This document shows, piece after piece, positions 2,842-5,800 of a DNA stretch of 64,000 bases. Below the pieces are notes generated by a model. That model searched no databases. It saw only the letters and a list, made by a program, of their open reading frames with translations, and had not been told where the DNA came from. Where the stretch lies: the NCBI GenBank assembly GCA_963924555.1, contig OZ004583.1, positions 1,831,501 through 1,895,500 on the forward strand, in the 5' to 3' direction. The stretch is from Crambe crambe. Lineage: Eukaryota; Porifera; Demospongiae; Poecilosclerida; Crambeidae. Numbering within the stretch: position 1 is the stretch's first letter; each line of letters begins with the position of its first letter. The translations under genes and the position numbers were made by a program.

Positions 2842-5800
2842 TTATCCTTTGATGACAGCAACAGGTCTTAATTTGATAGCTTTCTTGCTAATTCCAGCAT
2901 TGTGGCCTTTTGTATAATATACATTAATGATAATAACAGCTGACAGTAGTAGTAAAAACTTACATGTGTTCACAACATCAGTTACATTTTTATAAGAATC
3001 AGGAGCCTACAGAGTAAAAAGGAATGATTTAAAACATTTCTAAACAGAATTTCCTACTGTAACCTCTTCCATCACAAGCTTAGGTGATGCTACTCGTATG
3101 GCTATCCCTTTGCTGGCCAGAGCATCCAAAACATCCTGGTAGTCCAGACTTCGTCTGTAGTTTTATTCAGAAATACAATAATGAATCCAGAATGATTACT
3201 TCCTACTGTCACATACATACCTAGACTTTGCTCGTGACAAAGCTCGTCCCTGTAATAATAATAGTAATGAATAGTATTATTGCATGCATAATTATACTCA
3301 GACATACTGCTCCATGACATGTTGATCCAAAGGTCTCCTGAAATCCCTGCGATGTTCCAGTCAAAACATAACTAGAAGAAAAACATAACTATGACACAGT
3401 GGAAGAAAAAAATACTTCAATTGAGGAGCTCATATATAGCTAGCTGGTTTATCTGCAAGTTTCAGTAATTTTCACATTTTACTGTCTGATTAGCTACCAC
3501 AGCTGCACTGCCTGCATGCACTAGTGCTGTGTGTATGCAGTTACATATTCCCATAGCATTGCCATGAATGCTGTGTGCATGCACCTCATATTCTGCAGTA
3601 TTGCTACGAGTGCCATGTTGCATGCACCTCGTGGTCTGTAGTATTGCTATGAGTGTGCATGCACCTGCAAGTTCCCATAGTGCCTCCGATGAGGACAGGC
3701 TGGCCCATCAGTTGGTAGTCCACAGGAATGAGAGGATGGTGAGGTGGGAAGGCACGGGTGGATCCCTTTCTGTGTACTAATAATGTCCGCTGTTTTCCAT
3801 CTATCACTTAATTAGGAGTCAAGGTATTACTGTATTAGAGCTATGTTTTTCAGTCCCCATTGCACAACTTCAGAGAACAATAGTTAATGAAGTGTGTCTT
3901 TGACCTATGACTGTTACAACTAGCTAGCTGGTTGGATATGGGAAGGATTACACATGGCCAAAGGGCTGGCTAGGGCAAGGGAGAGGAGTATAGATAGTTG
4001 CTAGTATGACCACTTCTAAGTGTAGGGGACCTGTGTTTTTGTGACTCCAAGGCTGGTTCACAGGGTGAGGTGCTATAATTTTTGGAATGAGGATCTGAGG
4101 TGCTAAATGAGGTGTTAAACACACTTTTACATGATCTGCATGCAGTTAGCCTCATAAGAAGCTTCATCTGGCATTATTCTGCAAGTTGATGTGTGGCAGA
4201 ATATTACTATGGGTTCCCCTAGAATTATACCCACACAGGTGCTCTGCTAAACAAACAAACAAACAAACAAACAAACAAACAAACAATAATGAGGATATGT
4301 GTTCTTCAATCTTCGCAATGTTGTGTGAGACGTCGTAAATGATGTGCATATCCAAGTCATCAGGTGTCGAGTTGAAAGCCTTAGCAAATGCCTGTAAGAA
4401 GAAGAAAATTTTAGGAGTATATCAGTTATACTCACAGATGAAGGACAAGGGGGTTACAGAAAGCATCCCTCAATTTACTTCCTGTACAGGGACAATTATA
4501 TTAAGGAAAAAATAATTTATTCTAAATAAAAAAGAAAAGTAGGGATGGCTGTGTGCGGTTCAAAAAAGTTCAGCAATAAGAGAGTGAACTTCATCAATAC
4601 CAAACAGGCCAAGATGAGATATAAAGGGAGTGAAGTAGGAATAGTTAGCTCATAATATTGATGATGGGTAAGGGGTTACTTGACTGAAGTTCACTCTCTT
4701 GTTGCTGAACTTTTTTGAACCACACACAGCCATCCCTACTTTTCTTTTTTATTTAGAATAAATATTTTTTCCTTTACTTGTTCATCACCTTTTTTGATGT
4801 AATGCTCTATTATAGGCAACTGGATGCTGTGATCCTGCTATCCAAGTTAAAGTTCATGTATTGTAGCTATGTAGTTCATTGAAGGTCTCATCATAATATT
4901 GTATGAACCGAAATGAATATGATCTGGAAGGGAAAGATTGCCATTGACCTAATTTTATATAATTTTTATAGGCCTTTACTGGTGCTATGGATGTACCTGA
5001 TATACTTGATTAGTGTTGCATCAAGGCTTGATTCATAACCAGACTACGCTCTGAGCATCGAGAGACCAACATCAAGAGAGAAAGCTAACGACAGATTCCC
5101 TAGTCAGTTGGTCCAAGAATCATGTGTATGGGGGTGGGGCATATTTCTATATAGTGCACTGCAAAATGTAGGTTGAAAGCTAGCAAGTTGGAAATTGAGG
5201 TGCTATTTTTGAACATGTTGAGTGGATTATAGCGCAGTCAATTTTGAGTAGTGTGGTATAAAAATTATAGCATTTGAATGAACCATTTTTGAAATAAGTT
5301 GTTTGATGATGAGCGACCAGATGAAAATGGCGATTTTAGAAGTCGCTGTAAAATGATACTGCTTTGTCTTCTGCTCTTCAGTCTTCATACTTGAGTCCTA
5401 GCACATTGAAGGTGTTCTGTCTCTTCAAATTAGGAGTTGCTAACTGTAGGAGAGAAGTATCCTGGAGTTATGAAAGTATTGGTCCAATGGGGCAATCCAT
5501 GCCATCCCTACTTAGAGAGTACTATCGTACTCTCTGATACTGCACTAGTCGCAGTTGACTTGATGGAATTTACACTGATTTCAAACACCTGCTTTCTTTC
5601 CAGATCATGGTTGGCCAAAGTACAGTTCTGCCTGGATATTTTGTCCTGTGATAGTTATTGCCCGGCCCCTATTACATTATGTGAGTTGGGGCGAGTGGAG
5701 ACACTTTACCGGACCGCTTTTATATTATGTAGCTAAATTCCACATCTTAGAGAAACTTAGCTATGTAGGCATAATGTAATATATAATATGTGCTATCACA

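Follow-up and report, generated by a model that had tools for sequence, protein, structure and literature searches.

The window, the whole 64,000-nucleotide stretch of Crambe crambe DNA that was analysed, carries on its minus strand the gene for the RNA-splicing ligase RTCB. The gene model consists of 505 codons and a stop codon, interrupted by 16 introns. All 505 residues of the predicted protein align with human RTCB (PDB 8odo) with zero gaps (E 1.6e-294). This full-length homology to RNA-splicing ligase RtcB places the protein in that family, and together with the spliced model it bears out the 505-residue product proposed in an earlier note on this DNA. RTCB matches in the 143-Mb assembly come from a single locus, and relatives of the protein with 45% identity are encoded at two loci in viral_contigs. 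Fifteen of the 16 introns have GT-AG termini and one, intron 11, has AT-AA termini. Intron 11 starts with ATATCCTCA, ends with TACCTTGACTCCTAATTAA and has a G+C content of 40.5%. The gene and the features around this intron are as follows.

11146..2842, minus strand: coding part of RTCB, 17 exons and 505 aa; the exon model has no internal stop and its match to human RTCB is ungapped
4299..4391, minus strand: exon 11, ending in ...IAKIEEH, with the last letters ...GAAGAACAC at 4299
3808..4298, minus strand: intron 11, 491 bp, phase 0, AT-AA ends, very probably U12-type
4290..4298, minus strand: ATATCCTCA, predicted U12-type 5′ splice site, 7/9 matches to RTATCCTTT, RTATCCT included
4249..4286, minus strand: GTTT microsatellite of 9.5 copies within intron 11, containing rival in-frame GT donors
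3818..3826, minus strand: TACCTTGAC, predicted U12-type branch-point sequence, 8/9 matches to TTCCTTRAC, branch A at 3819
3808..3809, minus strand: AA 3′ terminus of intron 11, the best among the in-frame cuts scanned
3807, minus strand: G that makes an AT-AG end one base on, with a CAC-TGA stop if used
3665..3807, minus strand: exon 12, with the first letters GTGATAGATGG at 3807

The RTCB protein pins the cut of intron 11 to within a few bases. Across the join, IAKIEEHVIDGK of the model faces IAKVEQHVVDGK of human RTCB. When donors from 4331 to 4092 were scanned with acceptors down to 3756, 2,883 donor-acceptor pairs were open and in frame, and the AT-AA cut gave the top score against human RTCB (381). 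The runner-up cuts, scoring 380 to 378, are the AT-AA cut moved by 1-4 bases and yield joins such as EEHIIDGK or EEHMIDGK. Their ends are TC-TG, CC-GA, AT-GT and TA-AG, and we know of no spliceosomal class that matches them. The highest-scoring canonical cut is a GT-AG pair at 4276/3807 (score 363), which inserts seven residues. The earlier note had held that only the AT-AA cut gives the EEH-VIDGK join and a 505-residue protein. This is correct for the exact EEHVIDGK join but not for the reading frame, given the number of open cuts, and a GT-AG cut that keeps the frame, with its donor in the GTTT repeat and seven added residues, had been overlooked. The sequence and coordinates given there proved exact in a letter-by-letter check, including the join 4299/3807. 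Likewise, as claimed, use of the nearest AG, one base on, produces CAC-TGA and an immediate stop, as read from the sequence. Positions 3806-3808 of the window can also be seen as an AA|G tandem acceptor with a possible on/off choice via the TGA stop.

In U12-type introns some 10-15 nt separate the branch A from the 3′ end. Intron 11 combines a 5′ splice site and a branch site of this type with 11 nt downstream of the branch A, a spacing that agrees with the earlier count. It has the AT 5′ end and AN 3′ end of the A-type AT-AN subtype, AN being AA in the assembly. The specificity of these signals was assessed by sliding a 491-nt interval over both strands of the window, asking for RTATCCT at the start and for TTCCTTRAC with at most one mismatch and 9-14 nt following the branch A. 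With these thresholds, picked after intron 11 had been seen, 1 of 127,018 placements showed both signals, and that placement is intron 11. The 5′ test alone was passed by 16 placements and the branch test by 216, so that the product of the single-test rates predicts about 0.03 placements with both. A looser 5′ test, allowing up to 2/9 mismatches, still returned one placement, again intron 11. The other 15 RTCB introns differ from the 5′ consensus at 3 to 7 positions, and none of them begins with RTATCC. RTCB intron 2, a GT-AG intron, carries a branch-like sequence with one mismatch at 11 nt; the branch motif by itself is therefore weak proof. Taken together, the U12 signals of intron 11 are not a product of chance.

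The genome encodes the RNAs of the minor spliceosome. The snRNA search suggested in the earlier note returned one match each above the Rfam gathering score for U12 (107.1 bits), U6atac (107.6), U4atac (69.3) and U11 (97.7), the U6atac being off consensus at nucleotides 12-14. The same scan over the whole window gave 0 matches at the gathering score, and thus no known snRNA gene there at that threshold. A CENATAC/CCDC84 gene is represented by five PF14968 stretches in order on contig C14, four of them with E <0.001 and the fifth with 0.0019; the intron of this gene that was read closely is GT-AG. The computed pairing of the genome's U12 with the RTCB branch site is -8.3 kcal/mol, compared to -9.1 for the consensus branch site. 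For U11, pairing with the RTCB 5′ site is computed at -3.1, the weakest among five minor 5′ sites (the others range from -4.0 to -6.7), and pairing with the consensus 5′ site at -6.0.

These five sites include four from other likely minor introns in the genome. One (L025) is an AT-AC intron of 69 bp, phase 2, in a CLAMP-domain gene that we take to be CFAP119-like. The other three (L082, L083 and L084) are GT-AG introns in a RAF-like kinase gene (HRDLKSN|NIFL), an XDH-like gene and a TRAP-beta gene; the names RAF-like and XDH-like are our assumption from the residues, where Pfam gives Pkinase and Fer2. Branch spacing in the four introns is 11-14 nt. A Pfam match spans the join in L082-L084; in L025 the top Pfam stretch sits downstream of the join, which thus rests on the open frame. 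The L025 intron resembles RTCB intron 11 in its ATATCCT start, in TTCCTTGAC and in the 11 nt that follow the branch A, and differs from it in its AC end, short length and phase 2.

Genome-wide pattern surveys, in which introns were accepted by eye plus Pfam, had little or no excess over control. For the ATATCCTT type the counts were 11 in the genome and 11 in the reversed control, with three of the genomic matches falling at a single place; one of these 11 (L025) was accepted by eye. The GTATCCTT type gave 5 against 3 in the control, with three accepted on their coding flanks and two rejected. A loose TATC type gave 226 against 305, without excess and with many repeats, and none of the seven inspected among the first matches listed was accepted. 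The four other introns therefore rest on their coding flanks and not on counts. Moreover, since the patterns require TATCCTT, the accepted introns are uninformative on how often minor 5′ sites depart from it. One candidate with an ATATCGG start and AC ends (L052) was ruled out as a minor intron because it lies within an open frame on the opposite strand, and L056 is a second copy of the same rejected element.

The sole U6atac match (L007:1501-1628, that is C14:6412117-6412244, plus strand) carries GCC rather than AAG at nucleotides 12-14. It reads GUGUUGUAUGA-GCC-GAGAGAAGG, the Rfam consensus being GUGUUGUaUGA-AAG-GAGAGAAGG. The box that bears the GCC is presumably the one by which U6atac base-pairs with the UCCUU of minor 5′ sites. 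By eye the gene otherwise looks intact, with a TATATAA some 30 bases upstream and a run of T at its end. It keeps a 10-base Watson-Crick complement (GAUAAGGACG) to the 5′ part of U4atac and has one further 10-base run complementary to U4atac, including G-U pairs. A second copy was found neither by a family search (46 of 8,986 candidates scored) nor by a DNA search. Places within one mismatch of RNRGAGAAGGTTAGCA numbered 82, against 65 in the control, and none of the six loci put to Rfam, the three exact ones included, was a U6atac. U6atac patterns had 0 matches in genome_contigs and viral_contigs, so that these sets offer no comparison for the GCC change, and the literature consulted contained no mention of a U6atac like the GCC form, though no search was aimed exactly there. 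The GCC may mean that a canonical copy is missing, that the assembly is at fault here, or that the lineage has really changed.

The computed consequences of this change are uneven. All five minor introns keep TATCCTY, which in four of them the search pattern demanded. For the genome's U6atac compared with the Rfam consensus, the pairing energies (kcal/mol) are -1.5 vs -5.9 for the CFAP119-like 5′ site, -2.1 vs -6.8 for the RAF-like, -1.5 vs -5.9 for the XDH-like and -2.8 vs -7.1 for the TRAP-beta site, and -3.9 vs -4.2 for RTCB. Thus most of the pairing is gone at four of the five sites but little of it at RTCB, which pairs best of the five with the genome's U6atac. CUCAU at +6 to +10 of the RTCB intron is fully complementary to AUGAG of U6atac in a shifted register, a pairing that may be due to chance. 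If two Cs were looped out, AG..GA of U6atac could still pair with UCCU. It is conceivable, if rather doubtful, that the U6atac box is truly altered (UGA-GCC-GAGAG vs UGA-AAG-GAGAG) and that minor introns, that of RTCB included, are activated via a changed U6atac/5′-site helix, for example with the two Cs looped out; the CUCAU/AUGAG pairing would then lengthen this helix. Incorvaia and Padgett reportedly found in 1998 that U12-dependent introns are activated in vivo only if U6atac pairs with the 5′ site. For this reason the U6atac change, if real, would matter more than the RTCB intron.

Very probably, RTCB intron 11 belongs to the A class of minor (U12-type) introns, has AT-AA termini and is removed by the minor spliceosome. 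The earlier note had come to the same U12-type AT-AA interpretation, which is supported by the U12 signals, the branch spacing and the uninterrupted protein, and further backed by the four minor snRNAs, CENATAC/CCDC84 and the other likely minor introns of the genome. From the sequence, the frame, the motifs and the snRNA and CCDC84-family matches we infer each step of its splicing. U11 would pair with the 5′ site AUAUCCU, and U12 would base-pair with UACCUUGAC, leaving the branch A bulged. U6atac would then take over from U11 and the branch A would attack the 5′ A of the intron. The 3′ cut would fall after AA, eleven bases beyond the branch A, so that EEH runs on into VIDGK. CENATAC would help, as it does for AT-AN introns of human cells, a gene of its family being present here.

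Several observations count against the minor-intron reading. The intron is in phase 0, none of the other four 5′ sites pairs as weakly with U11, and U6atac is off consensus; the shifted cuts score only 1-3 points lower, and the last A is one substitution away from AC or AG. In every lineage analysed in PMC7367187, U12-type introns show a bias against phase 0.

The published record provides a class for this intron. Among animal minor introns, AT-AA is the non-canonical terminus seen most often (PMC10639083), and CENATAC promotes the splicing of minor introns of the AT-AN group, AT-AA included (PMC8280824). These reports suggest that RTCB intron 11 belongs to a described class. As in the animal AT-AN (AT-AA) introns described in PMC10639083 and PMC8280824, it has AT-AA ends, an ATATCC 5′ site and, at 11 nt from the end, a branch site resembling TTCCTTRAC, in a genome with a CENATAC-family gene; it differs in having CA at +8/+9 of the 5′ site, where the consensus has TT. 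On its sequence, intron 11 appears to be a clean new example of the known AT-AA minor introns of animals and no new kind. It adds a gene-level case with a clear frame constraint, together with minor snRNAs and a CENATAC-family gene in the same genome. Our literature search returned no paper pairing RTCB with 'minor intron', none titled on an RTCB minor intron and nothing combining Amphimedon, U12 and minor spliceosome; the main text of PMC10639083 does not mention sponge, Porifera or Amphimedon.

Another explanation keeps the minor intron but lets it truly end in AC or AG, with the A at 3808 due to a mistake in the assembly or to a rare allele. A single substitution would produce TAATTAC or TAATTAG with the exon join unchanged. 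The RTCB coding sequence has no further sign of error, which counts little against this idea, and a DNA search of the assembly with intron 11 gave one match, so no second haplotype speaks for or against it. We consider such an error or allele unlikely.

A further proposal supplements the AT-AA minor intron and is compatible with it. Here the acceptor would be a tandem: AT-AA use would give RTCB, AT-AG use one base on would give TGA and a non-productive mRNA, and the choice would tune RTCB output. The acceptor reads TAATTAA|G|TGATAG, in which use of the AG yields CAC-TGA, but an AAG end can arise easily by chance, and such tuning seems improbable to us. According to PMC8280824, minor A-type introns may end in AG or AA, and basal retention of AT-AN introns is relatively high. 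With an AG one base past a non-canonical AA, intron 11 suits a simple test of 3′ end choice by the minor spliceosome.

Finally, removal by the major spliceosome as a GT-AG intron, with the donor TTT|GTTTGTTTG at 4276 in the GTTT repeat and the acceptor AATTAAG at 3807, is open, in frame and the best-scoring of the canonical cuts (363 vs 381 for AT-AA) but highly improbable, as it puts its seven extra residues into a stretch that is ungapped against human RTCB, places the donor in a microsatellite, uses an acceptor that reads as lacking a clear pyrimidine tract and accounts for neither U12 signal.

Other RTCB introns contain repeats. Intron 10 (window 4502-4776) contains an inverted repeat that looks like a small, MITE-like transposon; its arms, 92 nt each and 91 nt apart, are 93% complementary. 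A second hairpin-like pair of inverted segments was noted, by eye only, in intron 9 (7050-7360). A 45-bp tandem repeat in nine copies occupies 9066-9467 in intron 5, and a perfect 128-bp GA/TC dinucleotide array lies near the acceptor of intron 2 (10285-10412).
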